A DNA stretch of 20,151 bases, from IMG/VR virus record IMGVR_UViG_3300018424_000352, positions 1-20,151 of that record; one strand, 5' to 3'. The stretch's first letter is position 1, and each line of letters opens with the position of its first letter. Below the pieces are notes generated by a model. The model had not been told where the DNA came from, did not search any database, and saw nothing but the letters and a program-made list of their open reading frames with translations. This DNA is from a virus. This document shows, piece after piece, positions 1,268 to 19,589 of the stretch. The position numbers and the translations under genes are program-made.

Positions 1268-4200
1268 TTAATTGGCAAGACAACGAATATCAATTCTAGT
1301 GTCTGTAGATAATGTACTCTTGAAGTATAATCTTGTGCCATCAAAATAGTAATCAATGTATGGTGCTTGTAAGACACCATTAATAAACACTACAAGAGAA
1401 TTAGTATTAAAGTTATCAAGGTCAGATCCAGTACCCCATAATGCAAATCCTTGAAGGTCAGTGTTTGTTCTAAATCCATAAGATTCAGTTCTCTGACCAG
1501 TTACAGTTGCTCCACTGTAAACATCGAACGTAGCACTAACTGCAGGAGAAACAACCTCAATAGCAACTTCTCTGTTTGCGTTGTTGCTGCTTCCTTTCAC
1601 TGTTAAGTTATATGCAAATGCTCTCTGTGCAATGCCATACGATGATCCTTCTTTAATAAAGACATTACCATCTTTATCAACATTAAATACCGAAGTTCCT
1701 GTTGGATCAAGGAAATCAATATATTTACCAACGCCAATATTGTTAGTTAACTTAATCTCAATTGGTTTGTAATCAACGCCAACTGAAGACCAATCTTGTT
1801 CGATATACAATCTGGTCTCTTTAGATCCACTATTTGAAACAATGGAATCAGTTGCAGAATTACCAATGTCAAGATGACCACCAATTCTCTGTCTGGTTGT
1901 TACATCCAGATCATAATTTACGTTAACAGATGTTTGACTAAAAATATCAACGAGATCATTACCAACATTTAAGACATAGTTATTAGAGTTATCCTTGTAT
2001 GCATGAACTTTTTCAGTTCCAATTAATCCAAAGGTTCTCCATTCTTGCTGGTCAGTATATACCCAACCAGTATTTCCACCTTCAACTGGGTTTACATTAA
2101 AAGTATAATCACCAACATTGCCAAGAGCAGGTGCCTGATCATTTGCCAGAAGTTTTGATAATTGACCAGATGGATTTCTTAATTGAACATTACTGAAAAG
2201 ATTATCACCTTCTGCAGTAAGAGTATTTAAGAAGTTGATTGGGGATTGGAATGAAGATGCGATTCTATTTCCAGTACCACCAAGAACAGTAATGCCATCC
2301 CTAACTGTAAGAGTTTGAAGTTCAGTAATTTCATTCTCCTGAGTTTTACCAGTAACAGCGTTAATAACGGTGTTACCAATATAAAGATCACCATTAGAGT
2401 TTAAACCAGAGTAGAATGCAATACCACCTTGCTCTTTAAGTGATTGAGAATACTTCTGCTCTTCCCTAGAAAGAACTTTGGTTTGTTTGATGGGGAAACC
2501 AGTAGAGTAGTTACCAGGACCGAAACCAACATATTCAAATGTGTGGTTACCAGATCTAATAGTAGATGGTCTACGGAGTTCTACTTTGATTACATCTCCA
2601 GGTCTAGTTGGATTAAGGTCGATCTTTCTAATTTCACCATCCCCAATTCCATCTGTAAGTTCAACTTCTACTGTTTGATGAGTTCCATCTAAATTATTTA
2701 AGTTACGTTCATGGTAAATTCTAGTTGATGAAGTTTCTTTACCTTCCCATCTCCACTCAATCTCATTATTAAGATATTCATCGAGGAAATGTCCAATAGA
2801 TTCTTTAGTAATGCTGTTAGAAATATCTAAAGGATCATTAGGACTAGAAGATAATCCACTGGTTGTCTTAACGTTACCAATCAGGACTGGATCAGCAATA
2901 CTCTTAGCAACGACTGGATCGCTAACAATATTATCAACATCAATTTCTGGATATAAGTGATCAGTATTTTGACTGAACTTAAATGTATTTCCAGGAAGGA
3001 CTGCTTGCGATACTGGAACCGATCCTTTGAGAACCGTCAGATAATATACCCCTTCAACTTCTACAGAACTTGCTTCATCATAAGAATAAGGAACAATTTC
3101 TTCTACATCATAAATGTAGTATACATCATTATATTGATGACCAGATACTCTAGAATAAGTAGCACTAGGTTCGGTTCTGGTTACACTAGTAAGATTACCT
3201 GGAGAAGCATCAGTACCTACAGCAACCCTGACAATATCAAGTAACGTATATGCAGCGTCTCTAACATTAGTACATCCACCAGGAACAACAATCAACTGCT
3301 CTTCGTTAGAAATTGTAACTTGAGTTCTATCAAGGTTAATAATAGAACCAGTTACAGTAGTGTTGTTGATGACACTCTCAACCATTGGTTTGAGATATGT
3401 TTCAATCATCGTATTAGTTTCAGTTCTCTCTGAATTAGGGAGATTGCTGGTTCCACTTACATAATATGCAGCAGCATCATATACTTCATCATTTCCACCG
3501 TATCTTGTATTATATGCAACTGCCTCAATAATATTAATCAAGTCATCAATACATCTCTGATCTCCACCTGTAATTGAGAATGAAGGATTGGCATTCTTAA
3601 ATCTTGCTACTGTCTCCTCTGCAAGGAAATATTTGTTAAGAAGAAGTAAATTAGCACCATCAGTGAATCTATCTCCTACACCAGAAATATCATCTCCCTT
3701 CTTAACTTGAAGTACATAACCAGATTGTGGGAATGATGGACTATTGAGTCCCTCACGTCTTGCTACATAACGCAATCTATAAAGTTTATCGTCTTGAATT
3801 CTTTCATCAACGATTCTTTTAACGTATGTACTTGGAGTGGTGGTAATTCCAGCTGGTCCATATTTGGTAGTATTGCTAGTTAAGATACCATAAATGTCAT
3901 TATTCAGTGCAGATACACTCACATACCAATTATTCTCAGCAAAATCAAATCCAAATACGTTTCCGTTTTGTGCTTTTTGAATTTTAGCAGAATACTCTTG
4001 AGTTACAGTTTGGGCACTTGCATAAAGAGGAACAAAAACTTTATCCTCAGCAGGTGATCCATCTTTGTTCAGTTGCCTTTGTCCAACTCTATATGCACCT
4101 GCAGTGGATGCTAATGTTCCACCAACGGTAAAATCAAGAGGCAACCCGTTACCAGTAGAAGGAATAATAACCTGCTGTCCAGGTTGTAATGTTCCAATAT

Positions 4201-6730: not shown

Positions 6731-6746
6731 GATGATAAAGTATAAA

Positions 6747-6818
6747 CTCCTCCGCCTGGATTCGAACCAGGGACCAATCGATTAACAGTCGATAGCTCTA
6801 CCGCTGAGCTACAGAGGA
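6747..6818 (-). tRNA. tRNA-Asn (GTT)
   Basis: The minus strand folds into a complete 72-nt cloverleaf. The acceptor stem TCCTCTG/CGGAGGA has one G-T pair, there is a standard D arm (GCTCAGCGGTAGAGC), an anticodon loop CTGTTAA giving GTT, and a T arm with GGTTCGAATCC. The discriminator is G and CCA is not encoded. It sits 17 nt before the Phd-like gene. Confidence 0.95.
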
Positions 6819-6866
6819 ATGAAGGGTAGCAGCATTCTGGTTTATCTTTCCAGCGCGAACCACCCA

Positions 6867-6939
6867 TGGAGAATAGGGGAGTCGAACCCCTTACCTCCTG
6901 CGTGCAAAGCAGGCGCTCTACCAAATGAGCTAATTCCCC
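6867..6939 (-). tRNA. tRNA-Ala (TGC)
   Basis: A 73-nt cloverleaf on the minus strand: acceptor stem GGGGAAT/ATTCTCC with one G-T pair, D arm AGCTCATTTGGTAGAGC, anticodon loop TTTGCAC giving TGC, T arm GGGGTTCGACTCCCC, discriminator A. CCA is not encoded; the following bases are TGG. A small hairpin (CTGG/CCAG) lies in the 48-nt spacer before tRNA-Asn and may mark processing. Confidence 0.95.
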
Positions 6940-6941
6940 AG

Positions 6942-7160: not shown

Positions 7161-7234
7161 AGCCACATGTCGGACTTGAACCGACGACCTACGGTTTACA
7201 AAACCGTTGCTCTATCCAGCTGAGCTAAAGTGGC
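7161..7234 (-). tRNA. tRNA-Thr (TGT)
   Basis: A 74-nt cloverleaf on the minus strand. Acceptor GCCACTT/ATGTGGC has one T-T mismatch at position 6. The D arm is AGCTCAGCTGGATAGAGC, the anticodon stem ACGGT/ACCGT carries loop TTTGTAA giving TGT, and the T arm is GTCGGTTCAAGTCCGAC. The discriminator is T and CCA is not encoded. Its first 10 nt overlap the end of the 65-aa gene upstream. Confidence 0.93.
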
Positions 7235-7682: not shown

Positions 7683-7695
7683 ATAAACCTCTAAG

Positions 7696-7780
7696 TAGGA
7701 ACGGGGGGACTTGAACCCCCACGGTATATATTACCAGCGGATTTTAAGTCCGATGCGTCTACCAATTCCGCCACATTCCC
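7696..7780 (-). tRNA. tRNA-Leu (TAA), class II
   Basis: An 85-nt class II tRNA on the minus strand: acceptor GGGAATG/CGTTCCT with a terminal G-T pair, D arm GGCGGAATTGGTAGACGC, anticodon loop CTTAAAA giving TAA, a variable arm with a GGTA/TACC stem, and T arm GGGGGTTCAAGTCCCCC. The discriminator is A and CCA is not encoded. The anticodon loop is uninterrupted, so there is no group I intron of the kind found in many cyanobacterial tRNA-Leu(UAA) genes. Confidence 0.95.
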
Positions 7781-8978: not shown

Positions 8979-11126
8979 TTATTCTCCTGGGTGACCCACA
9001 CAATCAATAATATGTTGATAGCGATCATAGACATCGCTAAGATACAGTTTAGCATCTTTTCTTGCAATATACCTTAATGAAGGTTTGATAATTGCTCTTC
9101 TTGAGTTAGCAACACCAACACTTCCTTCATTACAACCAAGATAAATCTTAGGCATTTTTGTAAACCCAAATCCTTCCTTAACAACTTCAATGGATAATAA
9201 TCTTCCATTGACAATATTTGGTTTTAATTCTGGAAGAACCACTTCTGCTTGTTCATCCGATGCAGGTTCGATAATGACTCCACAGGATTCATCTAGATTC
9301 TCACCAGCATTCAAAACTACTGGTGGGTTGTTTGTAGTAATAATACCTAACCATGTTGGGTTTTCAGTGAACACACCAAAAACTTTATCATAATCTGGAT
9401 TACCATCATCATCAGTTGGAACTTCGGTGTTGGTTACAGATCCATCAAAATAAGGATATCCACCTCCACCGTTAATAACGATAACATCAGTCAATTTGCA
9501 ATTGTTAACAATTGCTTTTAATCTTGCGTTTCTTCCATATCCAGCGTATGGAGTTACAGCAACTCTTGGTTCTCTACAAATACCTGGAACATTTCCTCCA
9601 GGATTAGTAATAACTACTCCAACAATAACTCCACTGCCACTAACAGCAGGGATTGCCCTAGGTCTATCATCACCCTGACCTTTACCATGTCCAGTAAAAT
9701 GAATGGTTGGGAATGCAGGAATACGCTCTCTATTTGCTCTAGAGCAATCAAGAGTGCCGCTGACTACCTTACCATCAGGACCAATAATAGAACCACCGTT
9801 TAAACTACTGAAGAAAGAATCTTCACCATACAATCCAACGTTCAAATCATCTGGAAGACCACTAAAGGTTTCCATACGATTAAATAATGTCTCAATTGCA
9901 TTGTCTGGTTTGTCTCCTTCTTTGGTGGAGAACTCACCAGTACCAAGGAAGCAGGAGAGGTTACCATCACAGAACTGTGCAATGAGTGCTCCAAGTTTTG
10001 CAACAAGAGAACCACCAAAATCACCAGCAACTTGAATGATCGAAACTGCATTCTTAATCATATCCAATGCAGTTTCAATTGCACCAGTAATTTCATTAAC
10101 AATACCTTGGATAATATCACTAATTACACAGAGAGCAGCATTTAAAAGATTTTCAAGTAAACCAGAAACAATATCAAAAAGAAACTCAAGTAGTTTTTCA
10201 AATACTGTTTTAAATATACATTTAATAATCTCCCAAATAGTGTCCATCACCTTAGTAGTTGCCCAGATAACTTCTGGTTTCTTTTGAGGTGCTAATGTAA
10301 GGGCATCAGTTACTGGTTTAAGAATAAACTTTTCAAAATACTTTCTAAGTTCATCTAAGATTAACTGCTTTACACTACCTAACAATCCTTGAGCAACTGC
10401 ACCAAGACGTGAAGTATATGTTGAGATAATTTCTAAAGAACTAGTAATATTACCAGTTGTTTTATCTACTAATGTAGATCCAAAATTCTCATTCCGTTCT
10501 GCATACTTAAACAAATCATTTAAAATTCTAGCGATGTCAGATTCTGGTCTAGGACCACATTTTGCATTGGCGACAGAGAGAGTTTGCTCTTCATCCTTAG
10601 ATTGCCTTTCATCATTCTTACTTGCTTGACCTACATTACTACCTCTATTTGATGGTCCATGTTTTGCTTGACCATCTGCAGGTAAGTTATTCTGAATGGT
10701 CTCTGGACGATATGGTTCGAAATCATTGGATAGACCAGTTTGTCCTGGTTGATTTGCATAGTTTTGATTCTTCTTTTCAATAATACCCAATGCACCCATA
10801 ACTATAGGTTGCTGAGCACTTTCTCCATCCAAAAATGTACCAAGAACCCAAGTTCCATTTAATAATCCATGGGTAGCACCAGAACCCCTTCTGCTGGGAG
10901 TTTCTGTAGTAGGCATCATCACATGTGCCCATGGCAATTCTTCAGGTTTAAGTTTACCACGTTCACGTTCGTGGTATCCCATAATCCTGACTTTGACTCT
11001 ATTTGCCTCAGAGTAATCTACTAACTCTTCACCGATAATGTCAACATGACCATCACCTTCAACTTGTCCTATCCATAATCGATTACCCTGAGCACCAATC
11101 CAATGATTAGATTCTAACGTTTGCAT
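8979..11126 (-). CDS. gp5: gp5-type baseplate hub with N-terminal OB-fold, lacking lysozyme (715 aa)
   Basis: Residues about 10-120 match the gp5 OB-fold: NHWIGAQGNRLWIGQVEGD, RVKVRIMGYHERERG, ELPWAHVMMPTTE, GTWVLGTFLDGESAQQPIVM. In T4 this domain caps the hub and is followed by a T4-type lysozyme and the needle. Here no lysozyme signature follows. Instead comes a polar linker, then a long amphipathic helical region at about 200-395 (for example KLLEFLFDIVSGLLENLLNA) with possible hydrophobic coiled-coil character. The C-terminal part at about 470-700 is beta-rich with 'V.V..GGGGYPYF' and GFGF-type repeats. The ATG overlaps the upstream stop by one base (TAATG). It probably forms the hub trimer between the gp27-like ring and the separate spike. 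The symbol refers to the OB-fold part only. Confidence 0.8.
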   Translation of the reverse strand: MQTLESNHWIGAQGNRLWIGQVEGDGHVDIIGEELVDYSEANRVKVRIMGYHERERGKLKPEELPWAHVMMPTTETPSRRGSGATHGLLNGTWVLGTFLDGESAQQPIVMGALGIIEKKNQNYANQPGQTGLSNDFEPYRPETIQNNLPADGQAKHGPSNRGSNVGQASKNDERQSKDEEQTLSVANAKCGPRPESDIARILNDLFKYAERNENFGSTLVDKTTGNITSSLEIISTYTSRLGAVAQGLLGSVKQLILDELRKYFEKFILKPVTDALTLAPQKKPEVIWATTKVMDTIWEIIKCIFKTVFEKLLEFLFDIVSGLLENLLNAALCVISDIIQGIVNEITGAIETALDMIKNAVSIIQVAGDFGGSLVAKLGALIAQFCDGNLSCFLGTGEFSTKEGDKPDNAIETLFNRMETFSGLPDDLNVGLYGEDSFFSSLNGGSIIGPDGKVVSGTLDCSRANRERIPAFPTIHFTGHGKGQGDDRPRAIPAVSGSGVIVGVVITNPGGNVPGICREPRVAVTPYAGYGRNARLKAIVNNCKLTDVIVINGGGGYPYFDGSVTNTEVPTDDDGNPDYDKVFGVFTENPTWLGIITTNNPPVVLNAGENLDESCGVIIEPASDEQAEVVLPELKPNIVNGRLLSIEVVKEGFGFTKMPKIYLGCNEGSVGVANSRRAIIKPSLRYIARKDAKLYLSDVYDRYQHIIDCVGHPGE

Positions 11127-11338
11127 TAATCTTCGTAAATTCTACATTCTGCTGCGTCTGGATTAGCGTCACAAAATAATTCTAAAGGTGTTGGATCATA
11201 AGTTTCGTTTGGATGGTTTTCATGATACGCTTCTAACTGTTCAAGCTCGTCTTCAATGTGACGACGACGTTGGGGTGAAAGTTGCGGATTAGATAGTTCT
11301 TCCCTATCTGCTTCAATATGCTGTTCGATGTTTTCCAT
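11126..11338 (-). CDS. CP12-like small protein in the baseplate operon (70 aa)
   Basis: The 70-aa protein has an N-terminal charged helical part (MENIEQHIEADREELSNPQL), a second Glu-rich helix (HIEDELEQLEAYHENHP) and a C-terminus ending ELFCDANPDAAECRIYED. The last segment closely follows the C-terminal signature of CP12, the disordered redox protein that binds GAPDH and phosphoribulokinase in the Calvin cycle: two cysteines eight residues apart around 'NPxxxEC', then R-x-Y and an acidic end. The N-terminal cysteine pair and the AWD-VEEL core of typical CP12 are absent or strongly altered. GGAG lies six bases before the ATG. It sits between gp27-like and gp5-type hub genes, 1 nt from one and overlapping the other, so a structural role is equally possible. 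The likeness is seen; the function is inference. Confidence 0.7.
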   Translation of the reverse strand: MENIEQHIEADREELSNPQLSPQRRRHIEDELEQLEAYHENHPNETYDPTPLELFCDANPDAAECRIYED

Positions 11339-15150: not shown

Positions 15151-17460
15151 TTAGTTACCGAGAATATTATGCCCCCAAGCACCATAATACGAAGTCCCAC
15201 CACCAAGAGTCAATCCATTCCCCATTGGCACTGGAACAGGAATAAGTTGAGGTTGTTGAGGTGTTGGAGTTAGTGATGGTAACAAGTTACCTAATGCAGG
15301 TTGTGGTTCTGGTCCTACTCCATTATTTAGAGACACTTTTGGTTTTGGATTAATCTTTTTATCGTCTGGAAGTGGGTGACTATTAACCCACTGACCAGGA
15401 TCAACTTCAGATCCTTTTGCTCCAATTTCCCAGTGTAAATGAGGACCTTCAGAAACTCCAGTACTACCAACATTACCTAAAATTGCTCCCTGCTCAAATG
15501 TTTGTCCATTCTTAAGAGGGGATGGCGCAACCATGTGAGCAAATAAATGCTTTTGCTTATAAACAGAATCTTGCCATTCAATATAGTTACCATATCCTCC
15601 AGAATCAAAATCAACTTTAGTTACTTTCCCTGGAAGATATGCATATATTGGAGTTCCAGATGGTGCTGCTAAGTCATATCCTCTATGCTGTCTACCAAAT
15701 CTTTCACCTTTTCCTGAAATAATTGAAATCCCTTTAGATTTAATATCAGTAGATGCAAATGGTGAATAATTTGTACTTAAACTTGCTCCCGATTTACCTG
15801 CATATTTAACACTTCCACTTTGCCCAGAAACTCTGCCAAATTCAGCGTTCTCTGGCATAGTGCCTGCAGCAGCGGGTGGAGTAAGCATGTTTGCAAAAAG
15901 TCCCAATCCCCCTGCAGCAGCACCTGCAGCATTATTTTTAAACCAATTAAATGCCTTTCCTACTGCTTCTTTAGCTGCCTTAATTTTATCCATGATGCCT
16001 CCTAAGATGTTCTTGAATCCATTAAGTACGGTATCAAAAATCTTATTGCCAACATCAACTTTTTTAAATTGACCTGATGTAGATTTACCTACATTTTCTT
16101 TTGGTAATGTTTTAAGTTTCGAAAGTTCTGGGATAGCAGATTGTGCTTCAGATTCAGTTCCTGTTGCTCTTAAATGCTCAGAAACTGCAGAATATAAATG
16201 AGAAGCACCAAAGGTTAATAATCCTAATGCTCCTGGTGCTCCTAAGAATGCAGCAAGTTTACTCTTAGGAACGATCCACTCCTTCTCACCCCCCTCACCC
16301 ACAAGAACGAGTTGAGGTTTCTCTACTTCACCACCTTCGGCAAGTCCTTCTTTGGCAAGATCCCTACCAATAAGAGCACCATCAATTGCTAAAGATACTG
16401 CAGTACCAGCGCCAGGAACGGTGCCAGCAATGCCAGATGCAATCTCTCCAAGTGCTCCTATACCGTCACCCTTTAATGCACGCTCAATACCAAATCCAAT
16501 ACCAGCAATAATGCTAAGTCCTGGAATCTTCTTGGCAACTGCTTTACCTAATCCCTTTGCACCAACTTTGGCAAGTCCTTTTTTAGCAAGAGCACCAGAA
16601 AGTGGTTTGACTGCTTTACCTAATAACTTTTTGCCAGCACCTAACGCTACTTTACCAGCATTTGCAACTTTAGCGCCAGCACCACCAAGACCTTTACCGA
16701 TCTTAGTCATAAGACCAGGGGACTTTGCTGCTTTAGTAGCAACTGATCCACCCTTAGCAAGTTGTATACCAGTGCCGACAATATCTTTTACTTGCCTTGC
16801 AGTGCTAAGAGCACCTTTTACTCCCCTAACACCTTTAAAGAATCCTTTTCTGACTGCACCCTTTACACCAGAAACTGCCATCCTGCCCAATTTCTGAGCA
16901 AAGCGTCTAGTTTGCCTAAATGGTCTACCTAATCTCCTAATAAACTTCTTCTTGAGATACTTAGCAACCCTTATTAATCTTCTACCCTTTCTGACTAATT
17001 TGATGCCACGCTTCCCAACAAGGCGTTTGATACCTCTCTTTATAGCATTGCCGAGGAGTCGTTTTAGATGTTTAAATCCTTTGGCAAGATAATCAAATAT
17101 TGATCTATCTTCGTCCTTCTTTTCTTTCTTTTCTTCTTTCTCTTCCTTCTGTGTATCAGTTGCTTTCTTTCTTCTTGGAGCAACTAATCCCCTGTAATCT
17201 GCAATTAGTTCTTTAAATCTTCGCTTTTCATAGCGAAAGATCATTTCAGAAAGTTTTACATTAAGGACAGCAGTGTTCCTTAATCGTAAGGTTTCTTTAT
17301 ATAAAAGACCAGTAGGTACTAATTTAGTTTTTGGTTGTGGTTCAGCACCCTCTGCTGGATCTTCCTTTGCAGCATCAGACATCCCAGCAACTGGGTTAGA
17401 ATCATAAATCGATCTTATGATGTCATTGTATTCGGATAGACCCAGTTGCTTGGAATTCAT
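15151..17460 (-). CDS. Tape-measure-like tail protein with C-terminal M23 peptidase (769 aa)
   Basis: After a short N-terminal part, residues about 119-215 are extremely Arg/Lys-rich (KRGIKRLVGKRGIKLVRKG and onward). Residues about 215-380 are Gly/Ala/Lys-rich with hydrophobic stretches, and VGEGGEKEWIVPKSK follows at about 383-397, a motif typical of the late part of tape-measure proteins. The C-terminus (about 570-700) is an M23 (lysostaphin-type) zinc metallopeptidase: His592-x3-Asp596 in HRGYD, His642 in FAHM, and His674-x-His676 in HLHWE, the full metal-binding and catalytic set. Such domains cut peptide cross-links in peptidoglycan. Its ATG overlaps the upstream gp51-like frame (ATGA). 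It probably sets tail length or fills the tail lumen and is delivered to the cell wall at infection. Which of the two long proteins is the true gp29 counterpart is uncertain. Confidence 0.8.
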   Translation of the reverse strand: MNSKQLGLSEYNDIIRSIYDSNPVAGMSDAAKEDPAEGAEPQPKTKLVPTGLLYKETLRLRNTAVLNVKLSEMIFRYEKRRFKELIADYRGLVAPRRKKATDTQKEEKEEKKEKKDEDRSIFDYLAKGFKHLKRLLGNAIKRGIKRLVGKRGIKLVRKGRRLIRVAKYLKKKFIRRLGRPFRQTRRFAQKLGRMAVSGVKGAVRKGFFKGVRGVKGALSTARQVKDIVGTGIQLAKGGSVATKAAKSPGLMTKIGKGLGGAGAKVANAGKVALGAGKKLLGKAVKPLSGALAKKGLAKVGAKGLGKAVAKKIPGLSIIAGIGFGIERALKGDGIGALGEIASGIAGTVPGAGTAVSLAIDGALIGRDLAKEGLAEGGEVEKPQLVLVGEGGEKEWIVPKSKLAAFLGAPGALGLLTFGASHLYSAVSEHLRATGTESEAQSAIPELSKLKTLPKENVGKSTSGQFKKVDVGNKIFDTVLNGFKNILGGIMDKIKAAKEAVGKAFNWFKNNAAGAAAGGLGLFANMLTPPAAAGTMPENAEFGRVSGQSGSVKYAGKSGASLSTNYSPFASTDIKSKGISIISGKGERFGRQHRGYDLAAPSGTPIYAYLPGKVTKVDFDSGGYGNYIEWQDSVYKQKHLFAHMVAPSPLKNGQTFEQGAILGNVGSTGVSEGPHLHWEIGAKGSEVDPGQWVNSHPLPDDKKINPKPKVSLNNGVGPEPQPALGNLLPSLTPTPQQPQLIPVPVPMGNGLTLGGGTSYYGAWGHNILGN

Positions 17461-17588
17461 TGGTTACGCTGTTGTTCTAGTCGTTTCTTTTCCTCTTCCA
17501 GATATTGTCTCAATAACGCAACATAAATTTCTTTTTCCCAAGGAATTAAATTATCCAATTCAGTCAAACTATACTTATGGTGTTGCAT
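17457..17588 (-). CDS. gp51-like small frame, probably the frameshift extension of gp26
   Basis: From the ATG at 17588 a 43-aa product reads MQHHKYSLTELDNLIPWEKE and ends in an acidic/basic helix. The same frame is open further upstream, back to the gp26 stop region (17645), giving 19 extra residues (RIALFQNSLENYYRVNFGL) that also look like real protein. No ATG, GTG or TTG start is available in that extension. The pattern 'H..yslteLdnliPWEkE' recalls the T or E' part of tail assembly chaperones (lambda gpGT, P2 E+E'), made only by -1 frameshifting. T4 gene order places gp51 here, right after gp26. It may thus be expressed as a 62-residue tail on gp26 (about 294 aa in total), as a separate 43-aa protein, or both. 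It overlaps the tape-measure gene by 4 nt. Confidence 0.65.
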   Translation of the reverse strand: MQHHKYSLTELDNLIPWEKEIYVALLRQYLEEEKKRLEQQRNQ

Positions 17589-17638
17589 TAACCCAAAGTT
17601 GACCCTGTAATAATTTTCTAGGGAATTTTGGAAGAGGG

Positions 17639-18340
17639 CTATGCGAAAAAATTTGATAATCCTTCGATAACGTATGGAGTTACTACTTCAGTATTGGGAT
17701 TTTTAATATCAACAGTATGTCTCAGTGAAGGCATAGTATCAAAGAACTTTTGAATTTCAGCAAATTGCTTACTATTCATAGTTTCAACAAAAGAAGTGAA
17801 TTCTTCTATGCTTGTGGTGCTTTCATCCCAAACGTCTTCATCGTTATAGATCTTTCTAATTGAAGATGCGACCAATCTAAAAGTATCATCAACACTCTCT
17901 TCTTTGACAGCAAAGGTGTCGATATTAGGATACTTCATTTCAATCCAAAGATCATCTGACAATTTAATTTGATTGCTGTGATCTTCAGGGAACTGCACCT
18001 TAATATCATCAATATTAATCCTTACAGGAACTTCAGTTTTACGATCATCTGGACAAGTTACTACCATCTCAATAATCTCACCAACAGATTTTGCTCTAAT
18101 ATTTAAGAACACATACTCAATATCAAAGGTAGCAAGGTCTTCAACTTTGAATCCCTTTGTAAGCACACACGCAGTAATAATTTCTTTAATTGCATTTGCA
18201 ATTTCAATATCATCTTCAGATTCAAGTGCTAAAAGAAGAATCTTTTCCTCTTTTACAAAAAATGGTCTGTATTTGACTTTCTTTTTAGTAGAAGGAATTA
18301 CCAATTCATACGTTGGTGTATTCAATGTAGGTAATGACAT
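17639..18340 (-). CDS. gp26: gp26-type baseplate hub / tail assembly chaperone protein (233 aa)
   Basis: Residues 24-41 (YRPFFVKEEKILLLALES) carry the signature of the T4 gp26 family (T4_baseplate), and the rest fits in length and style: VLTKGFKVEDLATFDIEYVF, then EMVVTCPDDRKTEVPVRI, where family members have a cysteine-centred turn. T4 gp26 is needed for hub assembly and is scarce or absent in finished virions, in keeping with a chaperone. GGAG lies nine bases before the ATG. The last codons run through AAATTTTTTC immediately before the stop, and the -1 frame continues into the gp51-like frame. It is placed directly ahead of the tape-measure-like gene, the classic position of tail assembly chaperones. 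Confidence 0.88.
   Translation of the reverse strand: MSLPTLNTPTYELVIPSTKKKVKYRPFFVKEEKILLLALESEDDIEIANAIKEIITACVLTKGFKVEDLATFDIEYVFLNIRAKSVGEIIEMVVTCPDDRKTEVPVRINIDDIKVQFPEDHSNQIKLSDDLWIEMKYPNIDTFAVKEESVDDTFRLVASSIRKIYNDEDVWDESTTSIEEFTSFVETMNSKQFAEIQKFFDTMPSLRHTVDIKNPNTEVVTPYVIEGLSNFFA
17645..17654 (-). promoter_or_regulatory. Putative -1 ribosomal frameshift site (AAATTTTTTC)
   Basis: In the gp26 frame the sequence reads TCA AAT TTT TTC GCA TAG. It contains two overlapping heptamers of the X XXY YYZ type, A AAT TTT and T TTT TTC, two codons before the stop. A -1 slip leads straight into the open frame that encodes the gp51-like part. No strong downstream stem was found by eye, so stimulation would have to come from elsewhere. 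Confidence 0.55.
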
Positions 18341-19111: not shown

Positions 19112-19131
19112 CTATATATTGATAGAGGATT

Positions 19132-19139
19132 TATTTATA
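19132..19139 (-). promoter_or_regulatory. T4-type late promoter TATAAATA heading the leftward operon
   Basis: The minus strand reads TATAAATAAATC, an exact T4-type late core, 20 nt before the ATG at 19111. It lies in the 43-bp gap between the divergent operons. No matching late core was found for the rightward operon in this gap. Confidence 0.75.
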
Positions 19140-19154
19140 TTTAGCGACGTAATT

Positions 19155-19589
19155 ATGGCATATTCTGGAAAGTACAGACCAACGTACCGAAAGAAGTATA
19201 AAGGTGATCCCACTAACGTCATATACAGGAGTTTGTGGGAACTAAAATTTATGAAGTATTGTGATCTGAACGAAAACGTCCTGGAGTGGGGTAGTGAAGA
19301 GATTGTCATCCCGTATATTTCTCCTATTGATAATAGGGTCCACCGCTATTTCCCAGATTTCTATGTCAGAGTACGAAGTAAAACTGGGAGGATTGAGAAA
19401 CTTATTATCGAGATCAAGCCGCTTAAGCAAACAACGCCTCCCAAAAAACAACAGCGTCGTACAAAGAAGTATATAACTGAAGTTACCACATATGCGGTGA
19501 ATGAAGCAAAATGGGAAGCAGCAAGAGAGTACTGTAAAGACAGAAAATGGGAATTTAAAATATTAACAGAGAAGGAGCTTAAGGTATGA
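19155..19589 (+). CDS. gp4: gp4-type head completion nuclease (144 aa)
   Basis: The start is the ATG at 19155 (MAYSGKYRPTYRKKYKGDPT); an in-frame TTG at 19119 would add 12 residues that do not fit the family. The protein has the usual length of T4 gp4 (about 150 aa) and its hallmarks: TNVIYRSLWELKFMKY, EWGSEEIVIPYISP and DNRVHRYFPDFYV. These form a PD-(D/E)XK nuclease-type core with Glu29, Asp68 in FPDF, and Glu86-x-Lys88 in IIEIKP. In T4, gp4 acts after DNA packaging to complete the head so that a tail can join, and mutants give defective DNA ends or heads. The end overlaps the next gene by 4 nt (ATGA). Confidence 0.9.
   Translation: MAYSGKYRPTYRKKYKGDPTNVIYRSLWELKFMKYCDLNENVLEWGSEEIVIPYISPIDNRVHRYFPDFYVRVRSKTGRIEKLIIEIKPLKQTTPPKKQQRRTKKYITEVTTYAVNEAKWEAAREYCKDRKWEFKILTEKELKV

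Follow-up and report, generated by a model that had tools for sequence, protein, structure and literature searches.

A gp26–gp51 locus that very probably encodes two forms of a tail assembly chaperone through a −1 frameshift in an IMG/VR virus record

Gene organization of the gp26 locus

The window, i.e. the whole stretch of DNA analysed, comprises the 20,151 bases of a virus record in IMG/VR. The gene order at the locus is a tail tube gene (PF23849), gp26, an extension in the −1 frame, and a gene for a 769-aa protein containing an M23 peptidase domain. The gp26 gene (17639..18340, minus strand) encodes a 233-aa protein, the TAC-N-like short form, which matches PF12322 (T4_baseplate; Pfam E 3.8e-69) and phrog_150 (E 1.5e-73). 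On the minus strand its 3′ end reads TCA AAT TTT TTC GCA TAG, and two in-frame heptamers overlap there, namely A AAT TTT (17654..17648) and T TTT TTC (17651..17645). After a slip at the latter, 62 codons follow in the −1 frame (17645..17460) and end at a TGA (17459..17457) that overlaps the ATG of the next gene (17460..17458) as ATGA. This extension (17457..17645, minus strand) encodes a gp51-like C-terminal domain (phrog_634, E 2.2e-28), and 19 of its codons precede its sole ATG. The combined reading gives a product of 294 aa and the unshifted reading one of 233 aa. The original prediction of a −1 frame open for 62 codons up to the ATGA junction, and of a fusion of roughly 294 residues, agrees with these coordinates.

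A canonical X XXY YYZ heptamer, as looked for in a −1 site, thus lies in frame with gp26, where gp26 and the −1 frame overlap. In-frame T TTT TTY occurs once in the 5545 codons of ten window genes, at the end of gp26 only. The −1 frame stays open for at least 60 codons after 373 of the 2321 stop codons of the window; because long open −1 frames are by themselves not rare, the case for frameshifting rests on conservation.

The 769-aa gene (15151..17460, minus strand; PF01551, E 1.1e-21), whose start overlaps the −1 stop, is probably the tape-measure gene, judging from its position and from matches to tape-measure PHROGs that are weak and mostly due to the peptidase domain. In 62 of 68 relatives, no more than 12 nt separate the −1 stop from the start of the next gene, and in some relatives the tape-measure annotation is found one gene further on.

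Several other features were identified in the window. Four tRNA genes (Asn, Ala, Thr, and Leu; 6746-6819, 6866-6940, 7161-7234, and 7695-7780, all on the minus strand) lie within ~1 kb, near small genes without assigned function. A 70-aa CP12-domain protein (PF02672, E 7.1e-13) is encoded at 11126-11338 on the minus strand, among tail and baseplate genes; CP12 is a regulator of the Calvin cycle and is known from cyanophages. At 19119-19589 on the plus strand lies a gene, divergent from the tail tube gene, whose product has an N-terminal domain resembling the TnsA endonuclease (PF08722, E 7.2e-25); in relatives this place is taken by the gp4 head completion protein.

Conservation of the slippery run

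Relatives of gp26 were collected from IMG/VR and named phages, and the gp26 stop could be read in 192 loci. In 173 of them, T TTT TTN is present in the 0 frame within the overlap, at the same place as in the window; its last base is C in 150, T in 21, and A in 2 loci. The −1 frame is open past the gp26 stop in all 192 relatives; it reaches the contig end in one of them and terminates after 47–70 codons in the others. Loci lacking the run also lack any Phe-Phe at that position.

Codon usage was compared in 73 non-redundant loci (<80% identity), which were selected as holding the run and, like all loci counted here, share ancestry and are not independent trials. The codon before Phe-Phe encodes Asp, Ser, Asn, Ala, or Gly and ends in T in 73/73 loci (45.1 expected from codon usage), and only 3 of the 85 Phe-Phe pairs found elsewhere in gp26 form the heptamer. 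Judged by this codon choice, conservation of the heptamer surpasses what conservation of the Phe-Phe protein sequence demands. Of the two overlapping heptamers originally predicted, both are present in the window, but A AAT TTT (17648..17654, minus strand) occurs in only 5/73 loci and was set aside as a conserved slip element; by sequence comparison the conserved element is therefore T TTT TTY (17645..17651, minus strand, in the window) and not AAATTTTTTC.

The exceptions to T TTT TTN are the Ackermannviridae, Kuja, and Cygsa01, all of which have an open −1 frame with gp51-like sequence. The gp26 genes of Ackermannviridae end in GAG/GAA ATT TTC ATT TAA, and the corresponding runs are ATT TTC in Cygsa01 and CTT TTT in Kuja. 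In Ackermannviridae, the −1 frame is closed 10–22 nt upstream of the gp26 stop, so that any shift would be confined to a short stretch, though this stretch contains no canonical XXXYYYZ heptamer. The runs in these three, not being canonical heptamers, suggest a different slip signal.

Protein selection and starts in the −1 frame

Upstream of the internal Met, pN/pS was 0.42 in the −1 frame, compared with values of 1.12 and 1.36 for the other two, in keeping with the proposal that the 19 codons before the Met look like protein. Among the relatives, stops within 45 codons are never found in the −1 frame and always in the other two. By these measures, the −1 frame is protein-coding from the slip onward. 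An ATG lies within the first 35 codons of the −1 frame in 70/73 loci, and the position of the first ATG differs between loci. A Shine-Dalgarno (SD) sequence of at least 4 nt precedes 6% of these first ATGs vs. 59% of gp26 starts, and no conserved −1-frame start codon with an SD sequence was found among the relatives examined.

The alignment of this junction across relatives, proposed earlier as a check, thus revealed both a recurrent run and a −1 protein conserved upstream of the Met. As for the outcomes that had been named as contrary to frameshifting, neither another frame nor a conserved start was observed, but the run does differ in Ackermannviridae, Kuja, and Cygsa01.

Possible stimulatory elements

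On average, the 50-nt fold beginning 0 to 5 nt past the heptamer is the most stable of the region. Compared with synonymous-codon versions, its mean z was −1.67 over the 73 loci, with 30 loci below −2, vs. −0.26 for the control segment. The candidate structure in the window (17583..17644, minus strand), a predicted fold proposed on the basis of the relatives, has a z of −0.9 against synonymous controls, which is not significant. No single stem common to all relatives was detected by RNAalifold (54 loci); the downstream stems are clade-specific with slight covariation, e.g. one TA/CG pair in group B. The only Rfam matches were tRNAs.

Upstream of the heptamer, the window contains an SD-like GAAGGA (17660..17665, minus strand), a possible stimulator. 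An SD-like match of at least 4 nt is present there in 43/73 loci, compared with 8.7% of control windows, and the GAAGGA/GAGGG element, located ~8 nt upstream, also codes for a conserved Glu-Gly, which is a confounder of this comparison. The downstream structure and the SD-like element are suggested as stimulators by these patterns and are not proven to act as such.

Relation to T4 gp26 and gp51

PF12322 covers residues 1-206 of T4 gp26 (8.8e-64) and 1-201 of T4 gp51 (3.9e-52), and the two are therefore paralogues. The −1-frame peptide of the window matches positions 230-278 of phrog_150 (E 2.1e-5), and the match of gp26 to the same family ends at 232. In profile comparisons, gp26 and the −1 peptides match consecutive segments of T4-type gp51 (98.3 and 96.6% probability, respectively), and the reading of gp26 plus the −1 frame in the window gives a PF12322 domain followed by the gp51 C-terminal domain in collinear order. 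T4 gp51 reads straight across the junction, the −1-frame peptide corresponding to its in-frame C-terminus. On the basis of these alignments, T4 gp51 naturally represents, in a single frame, the fusion of gp26 with the −1 frame.

Both halves of the window product, the PF12322 part and the gp51 C-terminal helices, are thus homologous to those of T4, but T4 carries two genes on opposite strands where the window has one frameshifted locus. No slippery heptamer was found in T4-type gp26 tails, which retain Phe-Phe written TTC TTT (GAG TTC TTT in T4 itself). In one T4-like contig, the gp51 reading (3001-3746) is interrupted near its middle by a premature stop that is not seen in its relatives, owing to either a sequencing error or a real break. 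Cyanophage gp51 has been described as lacking the first ~200 residues of T4 gp51 (Sullivan et al. 2010, PMC3037559), as would be expected because gp26 would supply them via the frameshift.

Comparison with tail assembly chaperones

In phage lambda, gpG and gpGT are the short form and the −1-frameshifted long form of a protein encoded just before the tape-measure gene. The window resembles this system in having short and long readings with a common N-terminal part; the gene that follows them is probably the tape-measure gene. It differs in that lambda slips on GGGAAAG and the window would slip on T TTT TTC, and in that the window gp26 is larger (233 aa) than its lambda counterpart and was not found to resemble other tail-chaperone families of Pfam in sequence. 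A scan of 52 gp26 members found no tail-chaperone Pfam family, and no relative turned up in a sequence search against solved structures.

The best match to a structural model of gp26 (pLDDT 88) among 350,542 PDB chains was the HK97 tail assembly chaperone 2ob9, with a non-significant E of 0.88. A model of T4-like gp51 (pLDDT 90) contains three helices added after the junction, and no tail-chaperone match appeared near the top of a fold search with this model. A fold search of a viral library gave gp26 relatives as matches. A chaperone-like working of gp26 and the fusion is supported by the gene layout. For the Pakpunavirus/Vandenendeviridae phage Adele, PMC12846349 describes a TAC-N gene whose 3′ end carries a poly-T slippery site for a −1 frameshift, followed by an ORF that annotations usually treat as its own gene. 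Adele belongs to a different phage lineage, with an invariant GTTTTT where the window lineage has TTTTTTY.

Alternative explanations

Gp51 might instead be a small protein made on its own, with translation beginning at an ATG (or GTG/TTG) inside the −1 frame; TTTTTTC would then be just the codons of a conserved Phe-Phe. The GenBank records of named phages do annotate gp51 as a separate gene, none of the GenBank regions viewed annotates a joined, frameshifted gp26-gp51 gene, and an internal ATG is nearly always available. These annotated starts sit at varying internal codons, and the gene is omitted in four records. This explanation is very improbable, since the position of the ATG shifts and SD sequences before it are nearly missing, the conserved protein extends upstream of the ATG to the slip, TTT TTY is preceded by a T whichever of five amino acids the codon before it encodes, the Phe-Phe of T4-type gp26 is written with other codons, and the separate gp51 of P-HM2 would span only 30 aa. 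Still further from likely, with a negligible probability, is an error of sequencing or assembly that split a gene truly in one fused frame. Although a six-T run is prone to indel errors, the same break in the same frame recurs in 192 loci of independent contigs and isolate genomes, and Ackermannviridae show the break with a different run; this explanation was rejected because the break is conserved across independently sequenced phages.

The remaining alternative accepts the frameshift fusion but regards the product as a chaperone of baseplate-hub assembly unrelated to tape-measure handling. In its favour, PMC3004832 counts T4 gp26 and gp51 among the chaperones of hub assembly, and the fold searches gave no significant match to known tail chaperones. 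We nevertheless consider it unlikely: a short/long pair produced by a −1 slip before a tape-measure-like gene is the layout of tail chaperones, and gp29, the T4 tape measure, is itself a hub protein (PMC3004832), so that both roles may be one.

Proposed mechanism

Very probably, a −1 slip allows the locus to encode both a short and a long form of a tail assembly chaperone. We infer from sequence that frameshifting operates in vivo, as well as its efficiency and the role as a chaperone. Most ribosomes would stop at the TAG to give the 233-residue gp26 (TAC-N), and a minority would slip by −1 on T TTT TTC, where both Phe tRNAs could re-pair on TTT TTT, to give the 294-residue gp26-gp51 fusion (TAC-NC). 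The helical domain gained at the C-terminus may recruit the tape-measure protein encoded directly downstream, which the gp26 part would then coat, as with lambda gpG/gpGT. In the T4 lineage, the same pair would be produced from two genes, with gp26 giving the short form and its paralogue gp51, to which the C-terminal domain is already joined, giving the long form.

More speculatively, and with a rather low probability, the frameshift may also set the output of the tape measure by coupling synthesis of the long chaperone to that of the tape-measure-like protein and fixing their ratio. Such control is conceivable because the −1 stop overlaps a start that mostly lacks an SD sequence: among the 62 loci in which this stop and the start of the next gene are at most 12 nt apart, only 19 have an SD of at least 4 nt (59% for gp26 starts). 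Unshifted ribosomes end ~180 nt upstream of that start.

Relation to previous work and implications

A 2022 abstract by Vladimirov and colleagues reportedly names T4 genes 26 and 51 and describes frameshifting as conserved in several T4-like groups. Tail assembly chaperones of T4-like phages are the topic of that work (Vladimirov, Gautam and Davidson 2022, Virology 566:9-15), which, as far as its title and citing papers indicate, deals with the same genes as in the window, a gp26-type TAC-N and a gp51-type long form. According to passages citing it, some T4-like phages have a short gene and, encoded separately, a long fusion gene (PMC10885494), and poly-T slippery sites occur in TAC-N genes of T4-like phages (PMC12846349). 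The original idea that T4 gp26 and gp51 form a short/long chaperone pair is right in outline, but it is not new. The interpretation has been largely published already (2022), and the present locus is a well-supported further case.

The results give independent support to the published view that T4 genes 26 and 51 separately encode a short/long chaperone pair which relatives produce by frameshifting. For annotation, the small 'gp51' in hundreds of cyanophage and related genomes would be better described as the end portion of a gp26-gp51 product. Together with the SD-like element, the downstream stems, which differ between clades, may constitute a testable recoding signal in marine phages.
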